A DNA stretch of 64,000 nucleotides, taken from NCBI GenBank assembly GCA_019096065.1, contig JAGUCH010000005.1, positions 1,984,001 to 2,048,000 on the forward strand, written 5' to 3'. Position 1 is the stretch's first letter. Every line of letters starts with the position of its first letter. Source of the DNA: Paracyclopina nana (taxonomy: Eukaryota > Arthropoda > Copepoda > Cyclopoida > Cyclopettidae). The position numbers and the translations under genes are program-made. Below the pieces are notes generated by a model. That model worked only from the letters and a program-made list of their open reading frames with translations. It was not told the origin of the DNA and did no database searches. Below, piece by piece: positions 6,415-64,000 of this stretch.

Positions 6415-6900
6415 TTGCATTTTTATGCCCCCCTTTCTTCCCAATTTTGGCAAGTGTCGAGTACGTGGAGGAGAAAACCAAATGCTGATTTAGTGGTGCG
6501 CATCTATCTGCTAATTGTGCCAACAGAAAATACCACTTTATTCCCCTGGTGGCTTTTGACGAATTTCGGCCCGGCTTTATCTAGTAGCAGGACAGATTTG
6601 CTAAGGCCTTTAAGGCAGATCATCAGATTTAGTAGTACAGTGGTACGACCTCTTAGTCAGCAAGTAGCTCATCTCAGAAATGTTCTTCTGTTGCTGCCGA
6701 AAATGAATTCCAAGCACGTTCTTCAAGGCTACCACTACTACTTCTCTGTAGACCTTTCCCCAATTCTCTTCCAGATGAACGTGACGGCATCATCCATTTT
6801 GCTATTTTTTTCATGGCCTCAAGTACTGACCCCATTAGATGCTAACTCTTTCCTGATTTATGGCTTTCTAACATTTGTAGCATCATGGACTTCTCACTAA
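6415..6900 (+). other. Unassigned 161-codon open frame
   Basis: This is the longest open frame in the first 32 kb that is not low-complexity. The predicted peptide is rich in Leu, Phe, Ser and Trp with hydrophobic stretches near its C-terminal half, but it has no motif I recognise, no clear splice partner and no supporting neighbour. An open frame of this length in about 30 kb of six-frame AT-rich sequence is uncommon but can arise by chance. It could be a small membrane protein, a decayed element fragment or noise; I favour noise. Confidence 0.12.
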
Positions 6901-6907
6901 CTATTTC

Positions 6908-6924
6908 CCCACTAGGTGGCGTTA
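6908..6924 (+). promoter_or_regulatory. CTCF-like site (CCACTAGGTGGCG)
   Basis: The sequence CCCACTAGGTGGCGTTAG matches the general CTCF core (CCA..AG.(G/T)GGCG) known from animals. It is one of six sites of this class in the window. No gene is visible nearby, so an insulator role is only inferred. Confidence 0.35.
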
Positions 6925-12900: not shown

Positions 12901-12929
12901 AGCTGCTGAGATTTTTTTCGGGTCTCCTC

Positions 12930-14420: not shown

Positions 14421-15059
14421 AATGGCCGTAATATTTTAGATTAATTTCCAAATTTGCTTTAAAATAAAAACCATTTTTTAGGTCACGCGAAATCAGTCAT
14501 ATTTTCAGGTCCATTAGCATAAGAATAAACAGCTCATTAAGTAAGTGAAATATCTCGGCTCTTTTTCTCTCTCCCTTCATTTGTAGTCTCGCTACTGCTG
14601 CGCCATGATATTCTCACTTCTCAGCATTTGTCAGCTGCTTTCTTTCGTCGTCTCCCCATCATCCATTTTGCGTGATTCCGCCGTAAATTGGGACATTCTT
14701 TCGGCTTCTCCCCTCGCCGGCTATTTTACGACCGGCGTGAAAATGACTTTGGACGTCTAATTGATACAATTACGCGCATCTTCTTCTACGTAACTTGTTT
14801 CTCCTTATCTGATGACCGGCGTGATGACGATGATTATTTTTTTGCTCCATTCTCCACCGATCTTTCTTATTACTCAGATGTCCATCATTCTGACTCGCTG
14901 GCAGCTCGAAAAAGCTCGAGTTCAACCATCAGATTGCTTCTTCGTTTTCCGATTCCCTGGGCCGAACGAAAAACCGTTGCTTATTCAAAGTATTATTGAT
15001 GTGCTCAGCAATGATGCAGCTCGCCATTTTTTCAAAATAACAACTCAGATTCAGGCATT

Positions 15060-15545
15060 CATCAACTTGGCTCAGTTTGAGTCAGTAATGATAAGAATGA
15101 ACTTAATTTTGGCTTAGTGTAATTAAGTTTGGTGATGAACTTAGCTTAACTCAGTTGTGTTATACTGAGTCTGGCACATAATCTTTCAATTTGGGCTCAG
15201 AATTTCTCACTTTGGCCTAGCAGTGCTCAGTTTGGGCTCAGAAGTTATCAGTTTGAAACGCCATTTTTTTTAATGAGCATTGCTCAGCTTTGCTCTCAAG
15301 AGCAGTTAAACTTTAATGCTCAGCTATTATTGATTTTTCTTAGCACAGCTCAATTTCGGCTCAGTAATGCTCAGAATTTCTCAACTAAGCTCAGCCTAGC
15401 TCAATGTAGCTCAGCATAGCTCAGTTTGCTTCAGCTTTACTCGTAATGCTCAGGATTACTCAACTAAGCTCAGCCTAGCTCAATTTAGCTCAGCATAGCT
15501 CAGTTTGCCTCAGCATTACTCAGTTAGGCTCAGTAGTGCTCCAGT
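15060..15545. repeat. Degenerate CTCAG-based repeat field
   Basis: Over nearly 500 bp the pentamer CTCAG recurs dozens of times in phrases such as GCTCAGCCTAGCTCAAT and AGCTCAGTTTGGCTCAG, spaced roughly 10 bp apart. Two phrases of about 80 bp near 15375-15440 and 15450-15520 are near copies of each other, so the field has grown by local duplication. No open frame crosses it. Confidence 0.75.
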
Positions 15546-18500
15546 TCAAGTGATGTGCATGAAAAAGCACGCGAACACATTTATAATGAGCTGACTCAGC
15601 TTTTCAGCCATGAAACTGATCCTTTTTAGGCAGAAGTCACGCCGAGTTTCCATTTGCATTCCTGAAGCTGCAACGTTGTTTGTTCCCTTTTTATAGCACC
15701 AGTCTATCATAGATCCAGCCAGATTTGGAAAAAATATTTACAACACATTGACCTGGCAGCTAGCAGCCATTGAAATGGGGGAAGCTTAAATTAAGCCAGA
15801 TTAAGAGTTTTTGGGATGATAAATAGCTCTGGTCTCAGAATAGCACATAATTAGAGCAAAGAGCAACTTCACCAAGACCTCAAGCTTGAACTCTCTCTCT
15901 GATTCCCATGGCATTAGACAAATTGAAGTCAGTGGGCCATAACAAGCAAATCACGTCTTCTTTTTTTTCTTCTTTCTTTGGAATCAGCCCTGCTCTTCCA
16001 TTTTGGTGTGCTAATTAAAAATTCAAGCCAAGTCTGTGATTATGAAATACCAAAGCTTTTGTTCCTTTCTTGAACCATGATGATTCGGGTCACCTCATGC
16101 TTGGCTTTTTTTGCCAGCCAATTATAATGAAATCAATTCTTGCCAGCTTCAGTTTTCCAGCCTAGCTCGATTATATTTCGGTTGGCTAAAATTGCAACTG
16201 AAGCAGAGCAGCTGACCGTTAAGGTTGATTACTGTGCGGGCAGTATAATATTTTTTATGCAAAGCAAAGTCATAAAGTGAAGAGCTTCCTGTTCTAAAAC
16301 TTCTTTTGGAGGGGGCAGTTGAAATATTGCCTCGTTTTTCTCTTGGCTTTATCAGGTGTTGATAGCTGCAACAAGACTGAAAGCGTCTTATTATAAATTG
16401 AGCCAACATTTTCCTAGTATAACCTGTCACTAAAAAATAAGTAATATATCTCAGTGAAAATTGAATTTTGAGCATCAAGTTGCATTTTCTTTTTTGAGTG
16501 AAGAATAAAGTGAGCTAATGCAGAAGCTGATACAAGATGAAGACTTGACACTTTTCCAGTATCTTTATGCTTATCTAAAATGTGCACAACATTTCAAGCT
16601 CGTGTCTTCACCCCAATCAGTGCAAATGTAGCATCACTTCTGATTTTCCCACTAGAGCAACAAGCCCACACAAATATTTCATTTGCAAGTGTAGAAAAAC
16701 AAGCTGCTGTTGGCCTCAAAATGTGCGAAATGCATTAATATTGAATTTTGCACTGCACTGGAAAAATTTTCCCTACCAAACGTAAAAGTTTGCTTAGTTT
16801 CGGATGCAGAGACTCGCACAGCCTGCTTTTTCAATTTCGCATCTCTAATTACATTGGAAAATGGCAATTCTGCATTGAAAGAAGCCGATTTCCTTTTATA
16901 GAGCGTTCATCGGGAGAGAAAGAGGACTCGAATTCGAGCCTTTCCAATATAGAATGTGTGTGTATATACGCATTGCTCGAGAATGTCTGCACATTTCAGA
17001 AGTGCAATTGAGCCAACATTTTGTGACGTGCATTCCTAGGACTTCCATATCCAATTGGAGGTCCACAACTGGCCTGACCTTTGGATAATCGAGCAAAAAT
17101 TCGCTAATCACGAGAAGCTTTTTTCCTAAAGAAAGTTTCACGCGCGCATCTTCCCACAGTGCAATAGTAGAAATTAGCATGATTTGGCATCATTTTACTT
17201 TTAAAGATTCCTTGATGATTGCATCCACTCCAAAAGCAAAAATTGGCCCAATTTGCTACAGTGTTTAAGCTTGGAGCTCATGGCTTTTTGTGTATCAAGC
17301 TAGACACCTTAATTAGTTTAATGGGGGGCATCAAGCTCATTGCATTAAGTTCCATGCCTTCATTTTCAGGCCTCGAATTTCTCGTTTGATGGGATGATAC
17401 AATGAAGAAAAATAACGAGTGAATTCACGTGTGTGTGTGGGTGTCAGTCAAGTGACAGTTTAGTGGCCGCCCACTTTGTGCCATGCCTACCTTCGTTTGA
17501 CTTGCAAAATTTAGCTTATGATCATGGTGATGATGATCACCATCAAGATCTTCTTCGTCAAGTGTGTCAAAAGTGGGTAGCAGTTTTGTGCTAGCACGAG
17601 GCACCACCACAGACCACAAATTCTTGCTGATTTACATTTATGAGTTAGGAAAAGTCGTTGAAGTGAAACATGCGTAGCAGAAATTGGGGCCGCGCTATCA
17701 AGATCGAAAGAATTTATGTCAATGCACTGCATCACTTGCTTCATTAATGATCAAGTCAAAAGGATTGATGAGGTGAAGAAAAAAACCGACAACCTATTAA
17801 ATAAATGAGCTTGCATTAATGGCCACGAAGCACTTTGATAAGCAATATGTGTATGGCTCTATTAGCAACCTGTCAGCGAGAAATCTTTAAAATAACTTTT
17901 TGAAAAAATAGGTTACTCTATCTTTAAAAAAACATTCCGTCTGCCCATAAGAGACATCCTATCAAAAAGAGAAGGAAAAGGAGAGAAAATGGCTTGCTAT
18001 ATCTTGTAGAAGGGCCTTTTTTCAAAAACGATATCTGAGTGAAGAGAGCTGAGTCATCATCTATTCCTTGGCATTAGGCCTTGCTCCAGTTGAAGCAATT
18101 CCACCGTCCCCTAATTGAAGGAGTTGCTAATATTCCCAACATTGTAGCACACGAGTTGGGAATTACCGCAATTCTACCGGAAACTTAGCACAGAAAAAGA
18201 GTTTTTCTCAGCTTGAGCAGCAGATATGACTTGGGCCAGTAGAAGGAAATTCCGCGAATGCCAAGCAACTCAATGTTATTCATTGAAATGGGAGAATTAC
18301 TACTACTTCTACCACGCTGATGATTTGCGCAAAACAAATCATTTGTCTTGCAACTCCTCACTTAATTACTACAGCTCATAATTGAACCTCAGAAACTTCA
18401 ACAGTGAACATGCACGCGCGGGCTTTAAACAAATTGGGGAGAAATTTTTTTGAGCAAGATTCTTCACCAATTTTTGGCAGGAAAATGCTGCTGTGGTGAA

Positions 18501-20108
18501 TTTGCTGAATTACTTACACCTCAACAGTTTTACAACTTTTGAAAAAATGTGTAGAAGTGTGAATGGCATGAAAGCAATCTACAACTCAATAGGCAGAAAA
18601 TGAGTTTTGTTTACATTTTTTCTTCAATTACAGGCCTTCATCACAAGAATTAGACATGGATGATGAAGAAAAATTGGCTGTTCTCGTGCTTTAAGCCCGT
18701 TATTTTTCATTTGGCTACTCAATTTTTGCCATGGGGCAAATTTCCCATTACAGACACATTCCACTTAGAAGAAGCAGCAAAATAGCATTTAACAAAGAGC
18801 CATTAAAAAAAGCACGGAGGAAGGAAATCGCAAGAAAATACTAAATGGGATATTTTTTAATAAACTTTATGCAATTTAATTTTGACAATATTTGGCAGAA
18901 TACACAGGGTTTTTAAAAAAGAGGTAACCCATTGTGATGTCATAAACGTTTGCTTTTAAAGCACCTTTTTGCAAATGTGTGTCAAGTACAATTTGAATTA
19001 AAGATGACTTTGCACTAAAGCCAAAATGAAGCCAAATTCCTTTGCCATTTCAAATGTAAATTAACCTGCTCATTATGTGCACGAAAAAATCGTGATTTGA
19101 GCATTATAGGATTGATGGCTGCCCTTAATCTTCTTTTTCTAGGAATGTTTCCATTTTTTAGATCTACCACTGCTACTACGTATACTTCATTGTGGTAGCA
19201 TAACTCTCCAAATTCAATTTGACGGAAATTCCAAACTTTTCGACACTTGACTGTCCATGCCCACAAATCATGATGGATTGTAGATCAAAAAGCCACAAAA
19301 TGTATCAAAAGAAGAAGAATGTCGGCTAAAAAAGTTGAAAACAAAAGAATCTACGTCCTTGATCATGTGAAAAGGGGCCAAAAAATAGTTCGTCTTTGGC
19401 CAGAGTGGAAAAAGTGAAATCTAATCAATTGCTGACCATAAAAATGATATTTGCATTTCTAAAAAAAATTCTTGGCAAGAAAATGCTTCAGCCACAAAAA
19501 TATGAGTGTACCTCAGAGAGTAATTAGATGTTTTTCTCAATCTCGGCCTATAATTACACCTTGCTGCAGCAGCTGAATAGGACCCACCTTTCAAAAATCC
19601 TCATAAAACTGGCCATCAAACTGAAAAAAGCTGCCTCAACGTCTTTCGAAGAAGAGTTGAGTCAACCCTAGCAAATTCAGACAGCCCTAGCGAGTTCTCA
19701 GAATTTTTACTCAGTTTCGCGCCAAAAATATTGAGACAACAACAAAAGGCAACTGAGTAGCTCGCTTGCTTTTTTGGTGGTTATGCAGCAGTAAACACCG
19801 CGTGCATGTCCTGATTTGTGCTAATGTGTCCCACTGGATCTCTTTTTTGGGTGCCAAATCTTCGTGTTTCCCGGGCCTAAACGAGAATCCAATTGTCTCA
19901 ATGGCTTAGGAAAGCAAGGAATACTAAGTAAGCCGTAGCAGTAGAGCTGGAAACTATTATTCTGGTGCCACCATTTTTAGCATATTTTTATGGCCATTTT
20001 GTGATTTATGGCGGTGGTCGAAAATGCCACAAGCAGATGGTTTTTTATTGTTATTCCAGGGAGAAAAGCTCGATAATCTATTCCAATTGCACGTGTGTCA
20101 CTCCTGCG
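15546..20108. other. Gene-free spacer, 15.5-20.1 kb
   Basis: No gene, long repeat or RNA gene could be supported. A short (GT)n run lies near 17429-17440. Open frames are under 110 codons and unrecognised. Confidence 0.45.
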
Positions 20109-21676
20109 AGGCTGGGATGACCAAAAGGCCAATTATGGATGTTTCCTCTTACCATTAATAATGCCCAAAATGTGACATGACATTCCCTCTTATAGCTCCT
20201 TGGCCTTGGGAAAGTGACAAAATGTTGTGCACCAGCCAAAATGGGCAAAATGGCCAGGATTTTTAATTTCAATCAAGGTGAGGAAACAATCAAGGTATTG
20301 CAATTTTATTTCATTCATTTTTTGTCTAGGTATCTGAAGCAGCTGTTCACTAGCTGTTAGTGATGTGGGTGCAAAAAACATACTTCATTGGTCCTGAATC
20401 TTGATGATCAGGCTGCTTCTGACTCACATGAGGACTTTGGTGACAAATTGGGCCCTGGAGGTGTCAAGACAACCAAGTGGCCACCTACCAGACTTGTAAT
20501 TGATTGATATAACTACTTGATGTTGCTGGTATGCAAATATGCACCATGATTTCCCCATAAGATTCCTCCACATATGTTACATACAACAAATGTGATGAAT
20601 ATATCCCTATATGCTATAACTGGACTTGGTGGGGGGCCCAAAACACTTATAGGTCAGAAAATGTGATGCAGCTCCTTTTTCCTTGTGGCCTCCAATTTAT
20701 ACCAACCAGTTTTCCATGTAAGATAGCTCAACAACTTTTATCATAGTTGTACACCCATAGTGCTCCTTCATTTTTGCAACTTAATTTATGAGTCTTGTAC
20801 CAGGCAGTATAGATAAGAATGCCCAGCATGAAATTCCTATCAATTTCCAATATAATATTCATAGCTCAGCCAAATTGAACCTAAAGCTCAAGACCACAGA
20901 GTTTTGAGCTACCTTTTGACCTTTAAAAAGAATTTGAGTCATGCTTCCACTGAGAATGGGCATGTGTCATGAAAATCAGAGATGTGGTGTGAAGAATAGT
21001 ATTTTTCTCCTGGAATTGAATTATGATTCAAATGTTCTGGTATTGAGGAATTGGCAGGATGAAAAATGTTAATACCATCTCTCTTGCTGTGAATCCAATG
21101 AAGTGTGCTGTTGTCAAGTCATCTAGTTGTACTAGTGCAGGTAATTCCATGTAATGGAGTCATCTGATGCCCAATTATTTAGAATGATGACCATATGTGA
21201 TTTCTATCTGAGATTTCCTGATGCTAATCTCCCAATATTTTGAAATTCATCCCATGCTAGGCTGGACATTACTCTCTTTTTCAATCAAGCATGTAGGACC
21301 CATTATTGACCCAATTGGTTCTTCTTGTCTGTAAAATTGTGCAACCAGGACCAAAATGTCCAAATGGCAAGATGTAGAAAATTGATAAGAAAGCCAGGTC
21401 TGTTTGCCAAAGATAAAGATCTAAGTTCACTGCAGTGTATGTAGCTCACAGAATTGCACAAAACTTCTTCATTTGAATAATTTGGCCTATATCTATAAAT
21501 ACTGCACTTACACAGCCAACTCTGTTTTCTTCTCCTGCTTAAGAATGCAGGTTATTGAAGCCCATATTGTAATGTCAAAGATGAGCAATCTCTCTATGCC
21601 AGTTTGAAAATAATGGAAAGGTCTCATATGTTGCAAGTCTCAAATATGAAGCATTGTGCTGCTCCTACTCCCATTA
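20109..21676. other. 1.57-kb stretch with no CpG dinucleotide
   Basis: Read line by line, no CG dinucleotide occurs between the ones at 20107 and 21677, although GC content looks similar to the flanks and TG/CA are common. This pattern is what long-term cytosine methylation and deamination would produce. No open frame of note lies in it. It directly abuts the AT-rich element that begins at 21787. Confidence 0.8.
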
Positions 21677-21786
21677 CGAGTTACTTTGGCTTCTCCTATA
21701 GATGTAGTACTCAAAAGACAATTTAGGAGTCTCTCATTTTCACAACACTTGCCATAGCTGGATGGCAACTTTTTATCATGCAGACA

Positions 21787-23687
21787 CCCCACAAAACAAA
21801 AAATCAGTAGTAAATCAGTAGTAAACCCCGTTGCAAATTAAATACATATAAATTATAAAATTTTTGTGATAAATTACAAATATGGTGTGCATAGATGTGT
21901 ACAATGTCAAATATTTACGTCAAATATTTTTATTTCCAAAGTTATGAATTTTTAAAATTTGACATTTCGTACTTTTTTGGTTATGTTTTTTGTTCCAAAA
22001 TACTTAATCTTTTTATAACTTTTGCCATTTTATGACTAATAAAGAATCCCGGTCTTCATTATATGTGTTCATTATTTGATATTTGTCAAATTATGAATCA
22101 CATTTTATTTAGTTTTTTATCAGTAGTAAACAGATAAAATACTGATTTCAACGTCCTTTTTTTTAATCAGTATGTCAAAATATTTTTATTAATAAAATCG
22201 CATCAATAAAATCAGTATTTTTTGTATTTCAAATACTTAAAAAACTGTATACTATGTCTGTTTAAAAAATTAGTTTGTTTTTGATTAATTGTATACTATA
22301 TCAGGTTGTTATGTAGATTTCTCTGATTTACTTGGTCAGTATTTCATGTACATTCTGGCACATAAGTCCCTTCAAATTCTGGCAGTTGTTAATCAGCTCT
22401 AATTACTATTCCTACTCACTACTTATTGTCTTTCATTGACTTTTTCAAATGCATCTTTAAGGTATACTATATCAGGTTTTCATCTAGATTTATCTGATTT
22501 ACTAGGTCAGTATTTAATGTATATTGTTGTCCTGGGGTCATTGCAAAAAAATCAATGTTCTTAATCACTTCTAAATACAGTTACTACTCTGCACTAATTG
22601 CCATTAACTCATTATTGGCACTACTGTCAATATGTGTATTAAATCAGGTGTAAATGTAGATTCTACTGATTTAATTAGTCACTACTAAAATCTAACTTAG
22701 TAAAATGTTCAGAGATGGCTCTGCTTGCAATTCAATAATTTTGCTAAATTGTTCTTATCAATAACTTTTAATGGCTTTAAGATTTCAAAAATCATCATTA
22801 TAGATGTTGTTTAGAACAACATGAAAACTGAGTTAGAAAGTGTCATGCTTCTTATTTTCAAAGAAAAACTGAGATCTTCAGTTTTATTCAAATATATATC
22901 TTATGGAGCAAGATTGCTGACTTGTAGCAATTCAGTCATTTTATTTTATTACTGAAAACATAGTTCTTCTTGTCTGATAAGCTAGAATTAGTGATGGAGT
23001 GAGTCAGAAAATTTCTGGCTCATTTATTCTCCACCTATTTGCAATACCTGAGCCTGATGCACTCCAAGGCAAAAGGGACAAAAGTATAATTGAAGTGTAT
23101 ATTAAACACAATAACAACTGAATTAATTGGGATTAATAAATACATAAAAATATAAATGGTATATGGTATATTAGTGACATTAAATTCAGATAAAATACAC
23201 ATAAAAAGCATTTACAGATTGTATTTGTAATCAGTTTCAACTACATTAACTACTGTTTATGTTTGTAAGAAAACAATATTAAATGTATATTTAATCAGTA
23301 TAATTGGCAATAAATAGGTAATAAATAGACAACTCCGAAAAGAAAAATTTGAAAAAAAAGTTCAAAAACAAATAAGTATTTAATGTGGTTGAAATCGATT
23401 TAAACCAGATAAAAACCGGATTTATTCAAAAGTAAATAATAATTATACAGACAATGATAAGTAATATAAAAAAATTTAAAGTGAATTTGATATCAGCACA
23501 TCACAATAGCAACGATAGAAATAAAAACTAGTCGATACAACCATTTTTGAAAAATCAGGTTTTGCGAAAAATTTTATGAAACGGTTGCGTTACGCTTTTA
23601 TCAGTATTCTTGTTACAAGACACCTGATTTAATATACGTAGTAAATCAAGGTTAAATCAGGTTCATTTTGAGTTTTGTTTTGTGGGG
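21787..23687. mobile_element. AT-rich 1.9-kb element with short TIRs
   Basis: The left end CCCCACAAAACAAAA is repeated inverted at the right end, near 23673-23687. The interior is very AT-rich, lacks a long open frame, and carries degenerate tandem units of about 170 bp: phrases like TATACTATATCAGG followed by TCTGATTTACT recur near 22288, 22461 and 22629. ATCAGTAGTAAA phrases lie near both ends. No convincing target duplication is visible beyond a possible 2-bp CA. A non-autonomous DNA element is the best reading. Confidence 0.5.
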
Positions 23688-32861: not shown

Positions 32862-34357
32862 CTCCGGCAAGATGGCGCATATTTCCATTTTGGAAAGAAT
32901 CCTCGCAAACCCCGAAGCCTTTCAGCTCTCCAGCGTTCGAAATTGACAGCTACACAGTCCTGGATGGGATCGACCATGACAAGCCCAGATACCGCCTTTT
33001 TGCCAACGACCGCGAAAAGCCCTGCTATCTGAGCTTGTACATCGCCAACGATAACCCCAAGGTGGCCTTTCGGTGCAAATACAAGCTGGAGGTCAACTAT
33101 GGCGAGGAAATCCTCTGGGGAGAAATGGTGATTGGGCCCTACGACAGCAGAATCCTCACCGAATGCGTCTTCAAAAAAGCCCACTTGAGCGTGAAATTGT
33201 GGCTGTATAACACGGTCACCATCTCGTTCGATGATCCAGCCCGAGAATATTACCCTCAAATTCTGGACCCCGACGTGATTTTGAGGTCGAGATGTGGAGT
33301 CGAATTTCCTGTGCACAAATCAGTGCTTCGCTACAATTCCATTGTATTCCTGGCGATGTTCAGACATCCTGAATTCAAAGAGGGCTCGGAAGTCAACCCA
33401 ATCATTGATTTGCCCGATGCCTCGGAAAAAACCCTCGAGACGATGCTCAAAACGTTCTACAACGACTGGGACACGATTCTTCCGTAAGTTCATTTTCGAG
33501 CGAAGCGACGCCCAAACACTGATCCCAGCCTAAATTGGGGATAATCGAGCGAAAAATAACTTGTCTACTAAGGGCCTGTTCACCTGCTTATTATGGCCGT
33601 TATTTTGGCAAAATATTGGAGAGAAATACTGAGAAACTGAGAATTTTATTTTTGGTGTAGGATGGCTTTTGGTACCAATATATCGATTCCGAAGTCAAAA
33701 TCTGAAAAATGATTTTACAAATACCGGATTTTTGCAAATATCAGCATACTATCGCGCGTTATTTTGCTGATAATACTACAGGTGAACAGGGCCTAAATAT
33801 TAGTACTTTTCAACGTATATTTTGATGGGCTTTTTGATCTTGTATTTGTGCTGTGTATTCAAATACGTATTTTCGTATCTTACAGAAATCAACTCACCGT
33901 GGAGCTGCTCATCATTGCGGACAAATACATTCTGACTGAGCTGAAGCAAAAGTGCACCACTCACCTTTCTTTTCACCTGAACAGCGAAAATGTGCTTGAA
34001 TGTGCGGTCATTGCCAACCTTATGGACTTGAAAGAGCTCCAAGATGCTACTTCAACTGTGATTCTCTACAATTACAGCAGATTCAAGGATACACCAGACT
34101 GGAATATGGTGCGAAAATTCCACCCTGGAGTTGTGACGCGGGTTATGACATTTGCAATCAAGCGGGGCCACAGAGAGCCCAGATTCTCCCATATTGGGTT
34201 CTACGTGGAAAATTGCCTGATTTATCTGACTGATGCTGCCTATGCCAGCGTGACCAATACATTCGACATTTTCGGCTTTTTCGTTACTAGCCTCAACAGA
34301 ATCCTGGATATGGTTGATCCTCAGGGCTTAATGCATGAGCCAGTAGCAGCGGAATAA
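32855..34357 (+). CDS. MATH-BTB (SPOP-like) protein, two exons
   Basis: Exon 1 is 32855-33483 and exon 2 is 33886-34357, joined by a 402-bp GT-AG intron in phase 2. The product is 366 residues. A divergent MATH-like region lies at about residues 30-125. A BTB/POZ domain follows at about 138-245, containing DPDVILRS, FPVHKSVL and LLIIADKYILTELK, the same landmarks as in SPOP, and then a short BACK-like tail. Such proteins bind substrates through MATH and Cul3 through BTB, acting as ubiquitin-ligase adaptors. The MATH part is more diverged than the BTB part, so the substrate cannot be guessed from it. I chose the ATG at 32855 because it has a good context (GAAATGG) and no upstream in-frame ATG follows the TAA near 32774. 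The exons are CpG-rich, unlike the 3' exons of the neighbouring ci gene. A lineage-expanded MATH-BTB paralogue is as likely as the SPOP orthologue. Confidence 0.85.
33572..33793. mobile_element. Tourist/Harbinger-like MITE in the intron
   Basis: A 222-bp element with inverted ends GGGCCTGTTCACCTG and CAGGTGAACAGGGCC is flanked by TAA on both sides (33569-33571 and 33794-33796). The 3-bp TWA duplication and TIR-only structure fit PIF/Harbinger-type MITEs. A near-identical copy, with about seven differences by eye, lies at 57062-57284. It makes up over half of the MATH-BTB intron. Confidence 0.85.
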
Positions 34358-52960: not shown

Positions 52961-53473
52961 TAAGTATTTTCCAAAATTGGCGGCCGGGCGTCACAAAATT
53001 CCGCTAAAAAGCGTGAACAACAAAGGGTGAAATTAGAGTATGGAACATTACCTCTCAATTTTTTGTGTGTCGGCTCTTTTCTAACGTACTTTTTACATTC
53101 ACCAAAAATTAATTCCAATGAAGTTTGGCTGTGAATGCTGACTGGAAAAAAAGCATGATAAATGTCATGATTAAAGGGCTGCTGTTATTTTGATGACCTC
53201 AAACTGAGACATACCACAACAAAGTCTCAGCTTTTGCTCTATGTGATTGTCTGAAAAGAGTTATCTTCATTCCAGTGGCCACGACGTGTAGTAGTACACT
53301 ATAGAGTTGTCGTATCACAGCATCATCATCATTGTTATGTGTCAGGTCCTCAGAAATGGGGTAGGTTGGGTCCAAACATCAACTGCATTCCTAACCCATG
53401 AGTTTATTGTTGGACAGCGTGAAACCTTTTTTCTTCATGTTGTTTGGCACCACCACGACCATGCACATAGAGT

Positions 53474-53518
53474 GGCCGCGACTGCATAGGCAGGGATCAA
53501 ATGCAAGCAAAACTTAGA
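53474..53518 (+). repeat. Left 45-bp terminal inverted repeat
   Basis: Identical base for base to the reverse complement of 63836-63880. A weaker similarity continues a little inward, with GAACCCATGTTTGG on the left against TTCACCCATGTTCG on the right. Confidence 0.9.
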
Positions 53519-53559
53519 TTTATCTTCACAAAAAATATAGATTACGCCGTGTGAACCCA

Positions 53560-54285
53560 TGTTTGGTGTGTTCGGTGTGTTCGCCGTGTTCGGTGTGTTC
53601 AGTGTGTTCGGCTGTTCGCCGTGTTCGGTGTGTTCGGTGTGTTCAGTGTGTTCGCCGTGTTCGGTGTGTTCGCCGTGTTCGCTCGTGTTCGCTGTGTTCG
53701 CTCGTGTTCGCCCGTGTTCGTTGTGTTCGCTGTGTTCGCTCGTGTTCGCCCGTGTTCGGTGTGTTCGCCCGTGTTCGGTGTGTTCGCCGTGTTCGGTGTG
53801 TTCGGCCGTGTTCGCTGTGTTCGGCCGTGTTCGCTGTGTTTGCCCGTGTTCGCCCGTGTTCGGTGTGTTGGCTGTGTTCGGTGTGTTCGCTCGGGTTTGG
53901 TGTGTTCGCCCGTGTTCGGTGTGTTCGCCCGTGTTCGGTGTGTTCGCCCGTGTTCGGTGTGTTCGCTGTGTTCGTTCGCCCGTGTTCGGTGTGTTCGCCC
54001 GTGTTCGGTGTGTTCGGCCGTGTTCGGTGTGTTCGCCCGTGATCGCCCGTGTTCGGTGTGTTCGTCCGTGTTCGCTGTGTTCACCCGTGTTCGCTGTGTT
54101 CGGCCGTGTTCGGTGAGTTCGATGAGTTCGGCCGTGTTTGGTGTGTTCACTGTGTTCGGTGTGTTCGCCCGTGTTCGGTGTGTTCGCCCGTGTTCGGTGT
54201 GTTCACCCGTGTTCGGTGTGTTCGCCCGTGTTCGCTGTGTTCGCCGTGTTCGCTGTGTTCGCTGCGTTCGCCCGTATTCGCTGCT
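53560..54285 (+). repeat. GTGTTCG minisatellite, left arm
   Basis: About 75 units of GTGTTCG plus two or three variable bases (GT, CC, CT, CCC), so unit length is 9-10 bp. A 19-bp pairing GTGTTCGGT-GTGTTCGCCC is frequent. All frames stay open for long distances because the unit contains no stop; the resulting Val/Phe/Cys/Arg-rich peptides are artefacts. Confidence 0.95.
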
Positions 54286-54290
54286 AGTTT

Positions 54291-55860
54291 CAGTTCTAAT
54301 TTTGCACTAGGAGACCAGTCTTGTCAAAACTAGATGAAAAAAGGCCAAAGTTTGGTCTTTGTCAAAAATGCAATTTTGCTCTAGCAATTATTCACGTTAC
54401 GCGTGTTTCGCTCCAAGCTCAAAAAGTTGCAAAAAATATGCCAGTTTCAGATCTTATTTTGCACTAGGAGACCAGTCATGTCAAAACTAGATGAAAAAAG
54501 GCCAAAGTTTGGTCTTTGTCAAAAATGCAATTTTGCTCTAGCAATTATTCACGTTACGCGTGTTTCGCTCCAAGCTCAAAAAGTTGCAAAAAATATGCTA
54601 TTTTCAGATCTTATTTTGCACTAGGAGACCAGTCATGTCAAAACTAGATGAAAAAAGGCCAAAGTTTGGTCTTTGTCAAAAATGCAATTTTGCTCTAGCA
54701 ATTATTCACGTTACGCGAGTTTCGCTCCAAGCTCAAAAAGTTGCAAAAAATATGCCAGTTTCAGATCTTATTTTGCACTAGGAGACCAGTCATGTCAAAA
54801 CTAGATGAAAAAAGGCCAAAGTTTGGTCTTTGTCAAAAAATGCAATTTTGCTCTAGCAATTATTCACGTTACGCGTGTTTCGCTCCAAGCTCAAAAAAGT
54901 TGCAAAAATATGCTATTTTCAGATCTTATTTTGCACTAGGAGACCAGTCATGTCAAAACTAGATGAAAAAAGGCCAAAGTTTGGTCTTTGTCAAAAATGC
55001 AATTTTGCTCTAGCAATTATTCACGTTACGCGTGTTTCGCTCCAAGCTCAAAAAGTTGCAAAAATATGCTATTTTCAGATCTTATTTTGCACTAGGAGAC
55101 CAGTCATGTCAAAACTAGATGAAAAAAAGGCCAAAGTTTGGTCTTTGTCAAAAATGCAATTTTGCTCTTGCAATTATTCACGTTACGCGAGTTTCGCTCC
55201 AAGCTCAAAAAGTTGCAAAAATATGCTATTTTCAGATCTTATTTTGCACTAGGAGACCAGTCATGTCAAAACTAGATGAAAAAAGGCCAAAGTTTGGTCT
55301 TTGTCAAAAATGCAATTTTGCTCTAGCAATTATTCACGTTACGCGTGTTTCGCTCCAAGCTCAAAAAGTTGCAAAAAATATGCCAGTTTCAGATCTTATT
55401 TTGCACTAGGAGACCAGTCATGTCAAAACTAGATGAAAAAAGGCCAAAGTTTGGTCTTTGTCAAAAATGCAATTTTGCTCTAGCAATTATTCACGTTACG
55501 CGTGTTTCGCTCCAAGCTCAAAAAGTTGCAAAAATATGCCAGTTTCAGATCTTATTTTGCACTAGGAGACCAGTCTTGTCAAAACTAGATGAAAAAAGGC
55601 CAAAGTTTGGTCTTTGTCAAAAATGCAATTTTGCTCTAGCAATTATTCACGTTACGCGTGTTTCGCTCCAAGCTCAAAAAGTTGCAAAAAAATATGCCAG
55701 TTTCAGATCTTATTTTGCACTAGGAGACCAGTCATGTCAAAACTAGATGAAAAAAGGCCAAAGTTTGGCCTTTGTTAAAAAATGCAATTTTGCTCTAACA
55801 ATTATTCACGTTACGCGATTTTCGCTCCCAGGTTAAAAAATGTCCAAAAAATATGCTAGT
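54291..55860 (+). repeat. 157-bp tandem array, 10 copies
   Basis: The anchor GCACTAGGAGACCAGTC starts at 54304, 54461, 54618, 54775, 54933, 55089, 55246, 55403, 55559 and 55717, a spacing of 156-158 bp. Copies are nearly identical; differences are mostly A-run lengths, CATG/CTTG and CGTG/CGAG switches. The last unit degenerates after about 55770. The repeated short open frames are not genes. Confidence 0.95.
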
Positions 55861-55864
55861 TTCG

Positions 55865-56040
55865 GTGGGTGCCGGTATTAAGATCGAATTTAGGGGGGAT
55901 TTTAAAGCCGAATTGATAAGGGATTTTAAAGTCGAATCACCTGGATTTTAAGATCGAATTGAAATTGATACTGGGTAATAAGATCGAACGGGAAAACAAA
56001 AAATGAACCTCCACCTGGATTTTAAAGTCGAAACATCTTG
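55865..56040 (+). repeat. Cluster of GATTTTAAAGTCGAA-type motifs
   Basis: Six variants of (GA)TTTTAA(A/G)(G/A)(T/C)CGAA occur at irregular spacing of roughly 20-60 bp, between the 157-bp array and the first MITE. They look like remnants of an older short tandem repeat. Confidence 0.55.
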
Positions 56041-56046
56041 ATTTTA

Positions 56047-57058
56047 GGCATGGTTCACCTGCTCATAATATCTGATATTTTGACAAAATATCGGAGCGAA
56101 ATACTAGGTGGATCCCACAACATTAGGCAGCTGAGCTTAAGCAAAGGCAAAGTAACTTTGATTGCGAATTTCTCAGCAACCTCTCAACTGATTCGAACCA
56201 AAATTGGTAGGATTCATCAGAGTTGCCTCATAATTGTTCATGCCTAATTCAGTCAAAATCCGAGGTCACATTCAAAAGATTGGTTTTAAGCAAAGCAAAG
56301 CTGGGTTAAGCAAAGGGAAATTGGGTACCACTTAGCAGCCTCGGATTTGCACTAAATTTGACAGCAACAATTATAAGGCAACTCTGATGAATCCTACCAA
56401 TTTTGGTTCGAATCAGATGAGAAGTTGCTGAGAAATATGCAATCAAAAGGTGGATCCCACAACATTAGGCAGCTAAGCTTAAGCAAAGGCAAAGTAACTT
56501 TGATTGCGAATTTCTCAGCAACCTCTCAACTGATTCGAACCAAAATTGGTAGGATTCATCAGAGTTGCCTTATAATTGTTCATGCCTAATTCAGTCAAAA
56601 TCCGAGGTCACATTCAAAAGATTGGTTTTAAGCAAAGCAAAGCTGGGTTAAGCAAAAGGAAATTGGATACCACTTAGCAGCCTCGGATTTGCACTAAATT
56701 TGACAGCAACAATTATAAGGCAACTCTGATGAATCCTACCAATTTTGGTTCGAATTAGATGAGAAGTTGCTGAGAAATATGCAATCAAAGTTACCTTGCT
56801 TTGCTTAAGCTTAGCTGCCTAATGTTGTGGGATCCACCTAAAGTTACCTTGCTTTGCTTAAGCTTAGCTGCCTAATGTTGTGGGATCCACCTACTGAGAA
56901 ACTGAGAATTTAGATACTGTTGTAGGATGGTTTTTGGTACCAAAAGACCGAATCCGAAGAAAAAATCTAAAAAATGATTTTGGAAGTACCTGATATTAGC
57001 AAATATCAGCATAATATCGCTCGATATTTTGATCATAATATCGCAGGTGGACCAGGCC
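56047..57058. mobile_element. Diverged Harbinger-like MITE, split by an insertion
   Basis: The ends GGCATGGTTCACCTGC and GCAGGTGGACCAGGCC are flanked by TTA (56044-56046 and 57059-57061). The parts outside the insert (56047-56105 and 56893-57058) align with the intact 222-bp MITE but are clearly more diverged, so this is an older or different subfamily copy. It shares its right TTA with the next MITE. Confidence 0.8.
56106..56892. mobile_element. 787-bp self-complementary insertion in the MITE
   Basis: It starts AGGTGGATCCCACAACATTA and ends with the inverse, flanked by ACT on both sides (56103-56105, 56893-56895); removing the insert and one ACT restores the MITE sequence. Inside are two tandem copies of a unit of about 342 bp (from 56106 and 56448). 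Each contains long internal inverted repeats (GAATTTCTCAGCAAC versus GTTGCTGAGAAAT, among others). The right terminal repeat is itself duplicated. Confidence 0.8.
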
Positions 57059-57061
57059 TTA

Positions 57062-57284
57062 GGGCCTATTCACCTGCTTATTATGGCCGTTATTTTGGCA
57101 AAATATTGGAGAGAAATACTGAGAAACTGAGAATTTTATTTTTGGGTTAGGATGGCTTTTGGTACCAATATATCGATTCCGAAGTCAAAATCTGAAAAAT
57201 GATTTTACAAATACCGGATTTTTTGCAAATATCAGCATAATATCGCGCGTTATTTTGCTGATAATATTGCAGGTGAACAGGGCC
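57062..57284. mobile_element. Intact Harbinger-like MITE
   Basis: The 223-bp copy has ends GGGCCTATTCACCTGC and GCAGGTGAACAGGGCC, with TTA on both sides (57059-57061, 57285-57287). It is very close to the copy in the MATH-BTB intron, so the family moved fairly recently. Confidence 0.88.
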
Positions 57285-57289
57285 TTAGT

Positions 57290-57600
57290 GTCGAATAACA
57301 AATTATTACGCTAAGTTTTAAGAAAGTCGTCTAAATCAAGAATTTCATGATTTATAAGAAGTAAAGTTAAAGTACCGCGCGATCCGCAAGTTTTCACTCT
57401 TCCGAATTCAAAATAAATCAATAAGTTTCGGCATTTGCGAATTCAAAAAGTGTAGTAAGTTTGAGTTTGCCTCACATTTTGAGTCAAGTTGACTCAAACT
57501 TTTGATTCATTTTGAATTCGCTAGAGAGAAAACCTGCGCATCGCGCGGTACTTCTACTTTACTGCTAATAAAACACGAAATTCTTGACCAAGTCTTTCAG
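57290..57600 (-). repeat. Inverted, diverged satellite monomers at the array edge
   Basis: 57426-57500 is the reverse complement of part of the 169-bp satellite monomer (GTTTCGGCATTTGCGAATTC and GAGTCAAGTTGACTC are recognisable). The first direct-orientation monomer, itself diverged, follows at about 57600. The array therefore begins at an inverted junction. Confidence 0.75.
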
Positions 57601-60600
57601 TCAAAATGTCAATTGCAGTTGATAGTTTGGGTCAACTTGACTCAAAATATGAGGCAAAGTCAAACTTACTTCACTTCAGTTGCAGCTGATAGTTTGAGTC
57701 AACTTGACTCAAAATGTGAGGCAAACTCAAACTTACTACACTTTTTGAATTCGCAAATGCCGAAACTTGCGCATCGCGTTATGCTACTAGGTGACTGCTA
57801 TGAAAACGCAAAATTCTTGACCAAGTCAAATTTCAGTCAAAATGTCAGTTGCAGCTGAAAGTTTGAGTCAACTTGACTCAAAATTAATGTGAGGCAAAGT
57901 CAAACTTATGACACTTTTTGAATTCGCAAATGCCGAAACTTGCGCATCGCGTTATGCTACTAGGTGACTGCTATGAAAACTCGAAATTCTTGACTGAGTC
58001 AAATTTCAGTCAAAATGTCAGTTGCAGCTGATAGTTTGAGTCAACTTGACTCAAAATTAATGTGAGGCAAAGTCAAACTTATGACACTTTTTGAATTCGC
58101 AAATGCCGAAACTTGCGCATCGCGTTATGCTACTAGGTGACTGCTATGAAAACGCGAAATTCTTGACTTAGTCAAATTTCAGTCAAAATGTCAGTTGCAG
58201 CTGAAAGTTTGAGTCAACTTGACTCAAAATGTGAGGCAAACTCAAACTTACTACACTTTTTGAATTCGCAAATGCCGAAACTTGCGCATCGCGTTATGCT
58301 ACTAGGTGACTGCTATGAAAACGCGAAATTCTTGACTTAGTCAAATTTCAGTCAAAATGTCAGTTGCAGCTGAAAGTTTGAGTCAACTTGACTCAAAATT
58401 AATGTGAGGCAAAGTCAAACTTATGACACTTTTTGAATTCGCAAATGCCGAAACTTGCGCATCGCGTTATACTACTAATCTCGTGATGACTGCTATGAAA
58501 ACTCGAAATTCTTGACTGAGTCAAATTTCAGTCAAAATGTCAGTTGCAGCTGATAGTTTGAGTCAACTTGACTCAAAATGTGAGGCAAACTCAAACTTAC
58601 TACACTTTTTGAATTCGCAAATGCCGAAACTTGCGCATCGCGTTATGCTACTAGGTGACTGCTATGAAAACGTGAAATTCTTGACCAAGTCAAATTTCAG
58701 TCAAAATGTCAGTTGCAGCTGAAAGTTTGAGTCAACTTGACTCAAAATTAATGTGAGGCAAAGTCAAACTTATGACACTTTTTGAATTCGCAAATGCCGA
58801 AACTTGCGCATCGCGTTATGCTACTAGGTGACTGCTATGAAAACTCGAAATTCTTGACTGAGTCAAATTTCAGTCAAAATGTCAGTTGCAGCTGATAGTT
58901 TGAGTCAACTTGACTCAAAATGTGAGGCAAACTCAAACTTACTACACTTTTTGAATTCGCAAATGCCGAAACTTGCGCATCGCGTTATGCTACTAGGTGA
59001 CTGCTATGAAAACGCGAAATTCTTGACCAAGTCAAATTTCAGTCAAAATGTCAGTTGCAGCTGATAGTTTGAGTCAACTTGACTCAAAATGTGAGGCAAA
59101 CTCAAACTTACTACACTTTTTGAATTCGCAAATGCCGAAACTTGCGCATCGCGTTATGCTACTAGGTGACTGCTATGAAAACTCGAAATTCTTGACTGAG
59201 TCAAATTTCAGTCAAAATGTCAGTTGCAGCTGATAGTTTGAGTCAACTTGACTCAAAATGTGAGGCAAACTCAAACTTACTACACTTTTTGAATTCGCAA
59301 ATGCCGAAACTTGCGCATCGCGTTATGCTACTAGGTGACTGCTATGAAAACGCGAAATTCTTGACTTAGTCAAATTTCAGTCAAAATGTCAGTTGCAGCT
59401 GAAAGTTTGAGTCAACTTGACTCAAAATTAATGTGAGGCAAAGTCAAACTTATGACACTTTTTGAATTCGCAAATGCCGAAACTTGCGCATCGCGTTATA
59501 CTACTAATCTCGTGATGACTGCTATGAAAACTCGAAATTCTTGACTGAGTCAAATTTCAGTCAAAATGTCAGTTGCAGCTGATAGTTTGAGTCAACTTGA
59601 CTCAAAATGTGAGGCAAACTCAAACTTACTACACTTTTTGAATTCGCAAATGCCGAAACTTGCGCATCGCGTTATGCTACTAGGTGACTGCTATGAAAAC
59701 GTGAAATTCTTGACTTAGTCAAATTTCAGTCAAAATGTCAGTTGCAGCTGAAAGTTTGAGTCAACTTGACTCAAAATTAATGTGAGGCAAAGTCAAACTT
59801 ATGACACTTTTTGAATTCGCAAATGCCGAAACTTGCGCATCGCGTTATGCTACTAGGTGACTGCTATGAAAACTCGAAATTCTTGACTGAGTCAAATTTC
59901 AGTCAAAATGTCAGTTGCAGCTGATAGTTTGAGTCAACTTGACTCAAAATGTGAGGCAAACTCAAACTTACTACACTTTTTGAATTCGCAAATGCCGAAA
60001 CTTGCGCATCGCGTTATGCTACTAGGTGACTGCTATGAAAACTCGAAATTCTTGACTGAGTCAAATTTCAGTCAAAATGTCAGTTGCAGCTGATAGTTTG
60101 AGTCAACTTGACTCAAAATGTGAGGCAAACTCAAACTTACTATTCTTTTTGAATTCGCAAATGCCGAAACTTGCGCATCGCGTTATGCTACTAGGTGACT
60201 GCTATGAAAACGCGAAATTCTTGACTTAGTCAAATTTCAGTCAAAATGTCAGTTGCAGCTGAAAGTTTGAGTCAACTTGACTCAAAATGTGAGGCAAACT
60301 CAAACTTACTACACTTTTTGAATTCGCAAATGCCGAAACTTGCGCATCGCGTTATGCTACTAGGTGACTGCTATGAAAACGCGAAATTCTTGACTTAGTC
60401 AAATTTCAGTCAAAATGTCAGTTGCAGCTGAAAGTTTGAGTCAACTTGACTCAAAATTAATGTGAGGCAAAGTCAAACTTATGACACTTTTTGAATTCGC
60501 AAATGCCGAAACTTGCGCATCGCGTTATACTACTAATCTCGTGATGACTGCTATGAAAACTCGAAATTCTTGACTGAGTCAAATTTCAGTCAAAATGTCA

Positions 60601-62879
60601 GTTGCAGCTGATAGTTTGAGTCAACTTGACTCAAAATGTGAGGCAAACTCAAACTTACTACACTTTTTGAATTCGCAAATGCCGAAACTTGCGCATCGCG
60701 TTATGCTACTAGGTGACTGCTATGAAAACTCGAAATTCTTGACTGAGTCAAATTTCAGTCAAAATGTCAGTTGCAGCTGATAGTTTGAGTCAACTTGACT
60801 CAAAATGTGAGGCAAACTCAAACTTACTACACTTTTTGAATTCGCAAATGCCGAAACTTGCGCATCGCGTTATGCTACTAGGTGACTGCTATGAAAACGC
60901 GAAATTCTTGACTTAGTCAAATTTCAGTCAAAATGTCAGTTGCAGCTGAAAGTTTGAGTCAACTTGACTCAAAATTAATGTGAGGCAAAGTCAAACTTAT
61001 GACACTTTTTGAATTCGCAAATGCCGAAACTTGCGCATCGCGTTATACTACTAATCTCGTGATGACTGCTATGAAAACTCGAAATTCTTGACTGAGTCAA
61101 ATTTCAGTCAAAATGTCAGTTGCAGCTGATAGTTTGAGTCAACTTGACTCAAAATGTGAGGCAAACTCAAACTTACTACACTTTTTGAATTCGCAAATGC
61201 CGAAACTTGCGCATCGCGTTATGCTACTAGGTGACTGCTATGAAAACTCGAAATTCTTGACTGAGTCAAATTTCAGTCAAAATGTCAGTTGCAGCTGATA
61301 GTTTGAGTCAACTTGACTCAAAATGTGAGGCAAACTCAAACTTACTACACTTTTTGAATTCGCAAATGCCGAAACTTGCGCATCGCGTTATGCTACTAGG
61401 TGACTGCTATGAAAACGCGAAATTCTTGACTTAGTCAAATTTCAGTCAAAATGTCAGTTGCAGCTGAAAGTTTGAGTCAACTTGACTCAAAATTAATGTG
61501 AGGCAAAGTCAAACTTATGACACTTTTTGAATTCGCAAATGCCGAAACTTGCGCATCGCGTTATACTACTAATCTCGTGATGACTGCTATGAAAACTCGA
61601 AATTCTTGACTGAGTCAAATTTCAGTCAAAATGTCAGTTGCAGCTGATAGTTTGAGTCAACTTGACTCAAAATGTGAGGCAAACTCAAACTTACTACACT
61701 TTTTGAATTCGCAAATGCCGAAACTTGCGCATCGCGTTATGCTACTAGGTGACTGCTATGAAAACTCGAAATTCTTGACTGAGTCAAATTTCAGTCAAAA
61801 TGTCAGTTGCAGCTGATAGTTTGAGTCAACTTGACTCAAAATGTGAGGCAAACTCAAACTTACTACACTTTTTGAATTCGCAAATGCCGAAACTTGCGCA
61901 TCGCGTTATGCTACTAGGTGACTGCTATGAAAACGCGAAATTCTTGACTTAGTCAAATTTCAGTCAAAATGTCAGTTGCAGCTGAAAGTTTGAGTCAACT
62001 TGACTCAAAATTAATGTGAGGCAAAGTCAAACTTATGACACTTTTTGAATTCGCAAATGCCGAAACTTGCGCATCGCGTTATACTACTAATCTCGTGATG
62101 ACTGCTATGAAAACTCGAAATTCTTGACTGAGTCAAATTTCAGTCAAAATGTCAGTTGCAGCTGATAGTTTGAGTCAACTTGACTCAAAATGTGAGGCAA
62201 ACTCAAACTTACTACACTTTTTGAATTCGCAAATGCCGAAACTTGCGCATCGCGTTATGCTACTAGGTGACTGCTATGAAAACGCGAAATTCTTGACTTA
62301 GTCAAATTTCAGTCAAAATGTCAGTTGCAGCTGAAAGTTTGAGTCAACTTGACTCAAAATTAATGTGAGGCAAAGTCAAACTTATGACACTTTTTGAATT
62401 CGCAAATGCCGAAACTTGCGCATCGCGTTATACTACTAATCTCGTGATGACTGCTATGAAAACTCGAAATTCTTGACTGAGTCAAATTTCAGTCAAAATG
62501 TCAGTTGCAGCTGATAGTTTGAGTCAACTTGACTCAAAATGTGAGGCAAACTCAAACTTACTACACTTTTTGAATTCGCAAATGCCGAAACTTGCGCATC
62601 GCGTTATGCTACTAGGTGACTGCTATGAAAACGTGAAATTCTTGACTTAGTCAAATTTCAGTCAAAATGTCAGTTGCAGCTGAAAGTTTGAGTCAACTTG
62701 ACTCAAAATTAATGTGAGGCAAAGTCAAACTTATGACACTTTTTGAATTCGCAAATGCCGAAACTTGCGCATCGCGTTATGCTACTAGGTGACTGCTATG
62801 AAAACGCGAAATTCTTGACTGAGTCAAATTTCAGTCAAAATGTCAGTTGCAGCTGATAGTTTGAGTCAACTTGACTCAA
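57600..62879 (+). repeat. 169-180-bp satellite with 518-bp higher-order repeat
   Basis: About 31 head-to-tail monomers anchored by ATGTCAGTTGCAGCTGA. Basic monomers are 169 bp. Variants carry an extra TTAA and a longer CTACTAATCTCGTGATGAC segment, reaching about 180 bp. In the right half three monomers (169+169+180) repeat as a 518-bp unit, with starts at 60595, 61113, 61631 and 62149. Every monomer has the dyad TTGAGTCAACTTGACTCAA. The recurrent 61-codon frames are repeat artefacts because 169 is not a multiple of three. Confidence 0.95.
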
Positions 62880-63829
62880 CAGCGAACGCGGCCGAACAGA
62901 GCGAACACGGCCGAACACAGCGAACACGGCCGAACACAGCGAACACGGCCGAACACAGCGAACACGGGCGAACACAGCAAACACCGGCGAACACAGCGAA
63001 CACGGCCGAACACAGCGAACACATTCGAACACAGCGAACACATTCGAACACAGCGAACACGGCCGAACACAGCGAACACGGCCGAACACAGCGAACACGG
63101 CCGAACACAGCGATCACGGCCGAACACAGCGAACACGCACCGAACACGGCCGAACACAGCGAACACGGCCGAACACAGCGAACACGGCCGAACACAGCGA
63201 ACACGGCCGAACACAGCGAACACGGCCGAACACAGCGAACACGGCCAAACACAGCGAACATGGCCAAACACAGCGAACACTTCCCAACACAGCGAACACG
63301 GCCGAACACAGCGAACACGTCCGACCACAGCGAACACGGCCGAACACAGCGAACACGGCCGAACACAGCGAACACGACCGAACACGGCCGAACACAGCGA
63401 ACACGGCCGAACACAGGGAAAACGGGCGAACAAAGCGAACACGGCCCAACACAGCGAACCCTGCCGAACACAGCGAACACGGCCGAACACAGCGAACACA
63501 TTCGAACACAGCGAACACATTCGAACACAGCGAACACGGCCGAACACGGCCGAACACAGCGAACACAGCCTAACACAGCCAACACTGCCGAACACAGCGA
63601 ACACGGCCGAACACAGCGAACACGGCCGAACACAGCGAACACGACCGAACACGGCCGAACACAGCGAACACGGCCGAACACAGCGAACACGGCCGAACAC
63701 AGCGAACACGGCCAAACACAGCGAACATGGCCAAACACAGCGAACACGGCCGAACACAGCGAACACGGCCGAACACAGCGAACACGGCCGAACACAGCGA
63801 ACATGGGTGAACTCGGGCATACACAGCGA
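62880..63829 (-). repeat. GTGTTCG minisatellite, right arm (inverted)
   Basis: On the plus strand the unit is GAACACAGC-GAACACGGCC, a regular 19-bp pair; on the minus strand it reads GTGTTCGGCCGTGTTCGCT. It is thus an inverted counterpart of the left array with a different favoured spacer, showing independent expansion. Long open frames on both strands are artefacts of a stop-free repeat. Confidence 0.95.
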
Positions 63830-63835
63830 AAAAAT

Positions 63836-63880
63836 TCTAAGTTTTGCTTGCATTTGATCCCTGCCTATGCAGTCGCGGCC
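63836..63880 (-). repeat. Right 45-bp terminal inverted repeat
   Basis: Exact inverse of 53474-53518, followed directly by the CATAGAGT duplication. The 112 bp after the duplication hold nothing I can identify. Confidence 0.9.
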
Positions 63881-64000
63881 CATAGAGTAGTACACTATGA
63901 AATGGAGCTGTGTTGTTGTGACAAAAGCCTCCTAAAAACCAGATTTGCCGCCCCTTCGCCCTGGCTGCCTGCCCGGGTAGTAAACATGTTTGTCACCTAT

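Follow-up and report, generated by a model that had tools for sequence, protein, structure and literature searches.

We analysed a stretch of 64,000 nucleotides from the copepod Paracyclopina nana (assembly GCA_019096065.1, contig JAGUCH010000005.1, positions 1,984,001 to 2,048,000; here called the window), and found that a unit of 10,407 bp at window positions 53474-63880 is very probably a non-autonomous foldback-type DNA transposon, which carries a satellite array within its ends. Directly outside the unit lies an exact 8-bp target-site duplication, CATAGAGT (53466-53473 on the left and 63881-63888 on the right), for which lengths of 9 to 15 bp all fail. The unit is bounded by perfect 45-bp terminal inverted repeats, the left one starting with GGCCGCGACTGCATA (53474-53518, + strand) and the right one at 63836-63880 (− strand). 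Both the ends and the duplication had been proposed in a preliminary description of this DNA and are correct to the base.

The order inward from the left is terminal repeat, short linker, minisatellite arm, array A, a mixed stretch, array B, right arm and right terminal repeat. The left arm (53567-54283, +), as delimited by Tandem Repeats Finder (TRF), is a 9/19-bp minisatellite of GTGTTCG units, and the right arm (62879-63803, −) is a 19-bp minisatellite of CGAACAC units, the reverse complement of the left, so that the arms are indeed oppositely oriented. Array A comprises 10.1 tandem copies of a 157-bp unit (54282-55863, +). The mixed stretch includes a 342-bp tandem block present twice, with inverted repeats inside, which is probably a nested small element (56106-56789), and a partial repeat resembling a miniature inverted-repeat transposable element (MITE; 57062-57156), with relatives at window 33572-33666, at locus L057 and in another copy of the element, E10. 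The B block opens with an inverted piece of array B (57423-57500, −; element coordinates 3950-4027). Array B itself (57676-62879, +), which joins the right arm at about 62879, is a higher-order satellite of about 30 units of 169 bp; the 29 units that were measured (169-176 bp) amount to just 10 distinct sequences, and a three-unit block recurs several times. In total, tandem arrays account for 9,383 of the 10,407 bp (90%, TRF), which agrees with the earlier account of an interior made almost entirely of tandem repeats and nested MITEs.

The same ends are found throughout the assembly, which comprises 92 Mb in 10 contigs, with the window on contig C5. A 30-bp end pattern, allowing up to three mismatches, matched 46 places genome-wide and a 21-bp end core matched 48, while the reversed patterns matched none. 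Other copies thus end at the same bases, and the first of the two refuting conditions named in the preliminary description does not hold. We examined 16 two-ended copies (E01-E16), with lengths from 2,828 to 23,442 bp; a likely 17th copy, whose right end has decayed, measures about 1 kb and is located at C2:7031833-7032818. Exact duplications, each with its own sequence, flank 13 of the 16 copies, being 8 bp long in 11 of them and 9 bp in two. When left and right flanks were deliberately mispaired, 0 of 240 combinations agreed over 7-10 bp, and the shared layout is therefore beyond chance. The 45-bp consensus is matched exactly by 23 of the 32 ends, which suggests that the family spread recently.

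The internal structure is also common to the copies. All 16 have arm repeats in both orientations, in E03 beyond a nested insertion, and array A is present in 15, the exception again being E03. The number of A units ranges from about 2 to about 42 (the latter in E04, as 21.2 double units), and tandem content from 15% to 90%, the three lowest values being those of E03, E02 and E07, which contain large insertions or other extensive internal sequence. Inverted tandem-repeat arms of variable repeat number, together with fixed ends and a target-site duplication, place the family in the foldback structural class. E13 and E14 have a flank in common at 99% identity over 1381 bp, and most likely represent one insertion that was duplicated together with this flank. 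Their lengths differ by 719 bp, with differences in both the right arm and array A, and since the flank is shared, this indicates that the arrays change length in place.

E03 consists largely of a nested insertion that bears direct repeats; we considered this copy as an autonomous copy and dropped it, the direct repeats at both ends of its loop resembling long terminal repeats. E07 (C3:936993-960434) contains a nested palindrome with 10-kb arms, 99.5% identical, separated by a spacer of about 458 bp (1888-11954 and 12412-22457 in the element string). It holds several tandem arrays and, in the part listed, no frame above 148 amino acids, and may represent either a second foldback of giant size or an error of assembly.

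Uninterrupted relatives of the target sites were identified by joining the two flanks of each copy, minus one duplication, and comparing the product with the window and the fetched loci. E09 (duplication TGCTGCTA) lies in a B-type satellite, the neighbouring units of which are uninterrupted (98% over 120 bp), and E12 (duplication GTGGGCCTT) lies beside a tandem unit with an intact site (92% over 92 bp). For E06 a single weak relative was obtained (81% over 113 bp). In addition, a related foldback nested in E10, named N2, is inserted in a MITE and flanked on each side by GTTATTTT; two empty forms of this MITE are present in the window at 33572-33666 and 57062-57156 (97% over 95 bp). Together with the identical end points, the 8- and 9-bp duplications and the conserved internal junctions, these paralogous empty sites uphold the proposal of a single inserted mobile foldback-like unit with satellite DNA.

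Five copies, E01, E02, E05, E08 and E12, pass from array B into the right arm at an identical base; we call them subfamily I. The 25 bp that span this junction are identical in all five, and a search with up to two mismatches recovered exactly these five places in the genome, with none for the reversed control. Four of the five have duplications of their own (CATAGAGT, GAATTTTT, CCGCGCGT and GTGGGCCTT), E02 having none. The junction between arm and array A is likewise the same in the subfamily, apart from one base in E12, and the numbers of B units in + orientation are 31, 5, 5, 6 and 13, in the order given above. An unrooted tree, built from 86 distinct B units, separates 33 of the array units of subfamily I from the remaining 53 with a local support of 0.93. 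Most simply, the 169-bp satellite would have been captured once and then moved by transposition. The satellite is thus inside the unit, as previously described, though not as a one-off cargo, but rather as a module common to a five-copy subfamily. Six further copies (E04, E06, E09, E11, E13 and E14) contain a B-like piece that is different and oppositely oriented, and which reaches 94% identity to the satellite around E09, against 83% at best to subfamily I. The simplest account of the sequences would involve at least two captures of B, one of them later carried to five loci.

B repeats also occur in inverted pairs at no fewer than eight loci without foldback ends, with the halves about 2 to 6.5 kb apart, and we therefore abandoned the idea that all B repeats belong to the foldback family. 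Two of these loci were read, L057 and L058. They have the same ends at different places, arms of B repeats and a loop array of 242/243-bp units (86-87% alike between the two), with a sub-terminal inverted TGTAGCACTGATARGAC, no duplication, and a T on either side. They are a second, different tandem-repeat element, built of satellite and mobile, with a layout that we take to resemble that of Helentron-type elements, a likeness seen in two copies which is no proof. At best, their B units are 97.6% identical to those of subfamily I, and the 169-bp module of subfamily I was apparently taken from another tandem-repeat element, a direction of transfer that we infer. Elsewhere, at C2:229653-240962, B repeats recur at a regular spacing of 3,717 bp, which suggests a tandem array of larger units.

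Several observations weigh against a satellite-carrying transposon. Among the 48 ends, 14 have no partner within the listed ends; E02, E13 and E14 show no duplication; and an uninterrupted target relative was not found for 13 of the 16 copies in the sequences compared. The longest B array is present in only one copy, and nine subfamily I units, located where the B block begins, are placed by the tree with other B repeats. No transposase match occurs inside the copies, as the preliminary description had noted for the copy in the window, and none in the genome could be tied to the ends. Finally, the evidence comes from a single assembly, and long tandem arrays are prone to misassembled length. 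One could accordingly ask whether the unit is real at all, or is the product of collapsed or misjoined tandem repeats, given that it consists almost wholly of such repeats and that the 10-kb-armed palindrome of E07 is a type of structure that can be artefactual. Ends, order and junctions are, however, the same across many distinct loci, and the duplications there are independent, which makes this scarcely credible.

The copies could also have spread within larger duplicated blocks and not by transposition, as the flanks of E13 and E14 (99% over 1381 bp), of L021 and L022 (99.9% over 1.5 kb) and of L004, L011 and L017 (about 97% over 1.5 kb) would allow. Outside these three groups the compared left flanks have only repeat pieces in common, and segmental duplication is contradicted by the 13 copies whose exact duplications, of 8 or 9 bp, each have a sequence of their own, and also by the uninterrupted target relatives of three insertions; we regard it as very improbable for the family. 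In a third account, which accepts the transposon, the copies of subfamily I would have gained the 169-bp array independently of one another, through recombination with other arrays of B or through gene conversion. This would suit the abundance of B repeats elsewhere, the second, different B-like lineage in six other copies and the nine boundary units that group with other B repeats. It does not sit well with a 25-bp junction that is identical at exactly five loci, nor with the separation of the 33 array units, and is improbable, if somewhat less so than segmental duplication.

A satellite-carrying transposon remains the reading that we favour, and it would operate as follows. A transposase supplied in trans would recognise the ends, through a common core, GGCCNNGACTGCATA, and move the whole unit by cut-and-paste, giving rise to an 8-bp, or sometimes a 9-bp, duplication. 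The tandem arms and the inner arrays would lengthen and shorten in place, through slippage, unequal exchange or conversion, and foreign satellite could enter by nested insertion or by recombination with other tandem-repeat elements. An array located inside the ends would then be carried to new sites, where it may expand again.

Transposase domains were searched in six frames across the genome. Five domain matches of Mutator-like element (MULE) transposases, with open frames, and 11 P-type matches were obtained, none of them between paired ends, and the one P-type locus that was read, L067, has none of the foldback ends. The Merlin domain DDE_Tnp_IS1595 gave no match in this genome, with a control that was positive in one of 14 genomes; the hAT dimerisation domain and the KDZ transposase (Zisupton/KDZ) also gave none, with controls that were equally silent in all 14. 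A full-length relative with a transposase, which the preliminary description had advised looking for, was not found among these matches. Outside array A, the window element has a single long non-repetitive frame (121 amino acids), which gave no Pfam match at an E value of 0.1. Non-repetitive frames of at least 100 amino acids in 13 of the 16 copies reach 154 at most (those of E02, E03 and E07 were judged by eye), and five frames of 106-124 amino acids, from E01, E05, E06 and E11, have no Pfam match above the cut-off. No autonomous copy was recognised, with frames judged by eye, at six single-ended loci and two pairs with related ends. Two candidates were set aside: L025, an end with almost no minisatellite, is apparently a truncated relic, adjoined by frames that by eye look host- or retroelement-like, and frames common to the loops of E16, L065 and L066 were read as non-coding (best Pfam score 17.2 bits, against a cut-off of 27). 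An autonomous copy may have diverged or be missing. At L021 (C2:7037626-7040686), a 332-amino-acid open frame starts about 0.5 kb inside an unpaired left end and runs to the edge of the locus; by eye we take it to resemble a purine 5'-nucleotidase, and it may be a gene that lies next to, or within, a truncated copy.

Among the superfamilies considered, the mostly 8-bp duplication and the GG terminus fit Merlin best. Terminal GG, duplications of 8 or 9 bp and tandem repeats inside some elements are described for Merlin (PMC8101967), and the same traits are seen here. Set against the lack of a DDE_Tnp_IS1595 match in the genome, for which the control was informative in a single genome, membership in Merlin is unlikely. 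A Mutator-superfamily foldback of the Phantom/Tm1 type, moved by one of the genomic MULE transposases, is doubtful as well, while having better prospects than Merlin. The five open MULE frames could supply the enzyme, and Tm1 is a MULE foldback with duplications of 8-10 bp, mostly 9 bp (PMC3169594). The present duplications are mostly of 8 bp (11 of 13), no MULE match lies between paired ends, and the 14-bp motif C of Tm1 has no match in the window with up to two mismatches. At another locus, L052 (C2:6668156), a MULE open frame lies between inverted repeats (31 bp, 94%); these contain several copies of GCGAATCA and are reminiscent of Tm1-type ends.

The terminal motif extends beyond the first family. 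Exact GGCCNNGACTGCATA occurs at 69 places in the genome, as compared with none for the reversed control and about three expected by arithmetic under even base use, and 28 of these places are outside the 48 first-family ends. Six of the 28 were read, namely both ends of N2 and two pairs that define a further family, N3. N2 (7,457 bp, in E10) starts with GGCCAGGACTGCATA, and a 310-bp array accompanies its (AACAATCTG)n arms. The N3 copies have (TGTACAGCG)n arms; L065 is flanked by the duplication GTAAATGG and includes a 40-bp array, and L066 lies within B-like repeats with no clean duplication. Beyond the 15-bp motif, N3 and L063 are clearly like the first family (scoring 20 against a shuffle maximum of 6, and 17 against one of 2, respectively), and the likeness of N2 is weak (4 against 2). 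A GGCCNNGACTGCATA pair at C7:5062251-5070208 encloses array A units, and two of the 48 ends also lead into other arrays: at L063 this is a 90-bp array no shorter than 4.7 kb, and at L023 an array with 32-bp units that starts about 0.3 kb further in. The repeats associated with the motif thus include arms of GTGTTCG, AACAATCTG and TGTACAGCG units and loops of 157, 169, 310, 40 and perhaps 90 bp.

We tentatively suggest, as an idea that falls only a little short of even chances, that these families form a foldback clan with one end-recognition system, GGCCNNGACTGCATA, whose members would act as interchangeable satellite vehicles, insert into one another as well as into satellite arrays, and take up and redistribute repeats, and that the satellites of this genome were largely dispersed in this way. 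Three ends of the first family, L011 (C1:5970633), L004 (C4:3436439) and L017 (C2:11420995), have the 1.5-kb flanks of about 97% identity mentioned above, which include a tandem stretch partly like an N2-like minisatellite, with an N2-type end 5-16 kb inward; they may belong to a composite element that was dispersed as a whole.

Like Galileo of Drosophila, a member of the P superfamily, the present family has long, internally repetitive inverted ends. Galileo has a P-type transposase, whereas no P-type match lies between the ends here. The target duplication of Galileo is 7 bp long. The data do not establish a kinship with Galileo, which the preliminary description had named beside foldbacks.

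The closest parallel in idea is Tetris of Drosophila virilis, a non-autonomous foldback whose arm repeats, of about 220 bp, have grown into satellite DNA; its three complete copies have duplications of 8-9 bp, and repeat number varies between copies (PMC4079207). The present family is also non-autonomous, with tandem repeats in long inverted arms, a variable middle and duplications of 8-9 bp, and with satellite arrays inside the element it is akin to satellite-forming foldbacks of the Tetris type. Unlike Tetris, it has 9/19-bp minisatellite arms and a loop with further satellites, of 157 and 169 bp; a single satellite module recurs at five loci with its junction in common, and related families have other repeats. 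Tm1 of the root-knot nematodes Meloidogyne, a Mutator/foldback system, encodes a MULE transposase inside one element type, of which the coding copy measures 2.6 kb, and has asymmetric 7-bp termini besides motif C (PMC3169594). Composite ends, short tandem repeats of variable number and a majority of non-coding copies are features in common with Tm1, as are the duplications, which in Tm1 have no clear consensus; in contrast to Tm1, there is no MULE transposase inside the copies. Capture and dispersal of tandem repeats have also been proposed for the miDNA4 MITEs of Xenopus and for Helitron/Helentron elements with central arrays (PMC12628747). Those are MITEs or rolling-circle elements, whereas here a kilobase-sized foldback has different satellites in its arms and its loop.

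Foldbacks with tandem-repeat arms and links to satellite DNA are already known from Tm1, Tetris and Galileo. A literature search by titles and the beginnings of abstracts of the papers listed, incomplete for subscription papers, showed no foldback in which minisatellite arms enclose a loop of a different, higher-order satellite, which is weak evidence of novelty. The statement that this exact layout has no described match holds to that extent; the isolation that it implied does not, given the related families in the same genome and the closeness in kind of Tetris and Tm1. It has long been asked how satellite DNA arrives at new sites, and this element points to a route of spread. Because a higher-order array lies inside fixed ends at five loci, with one junction and, in four of them, its own target-site duplication, the capture, the carriage and the local expansion of a satellite can here be separated and dated.

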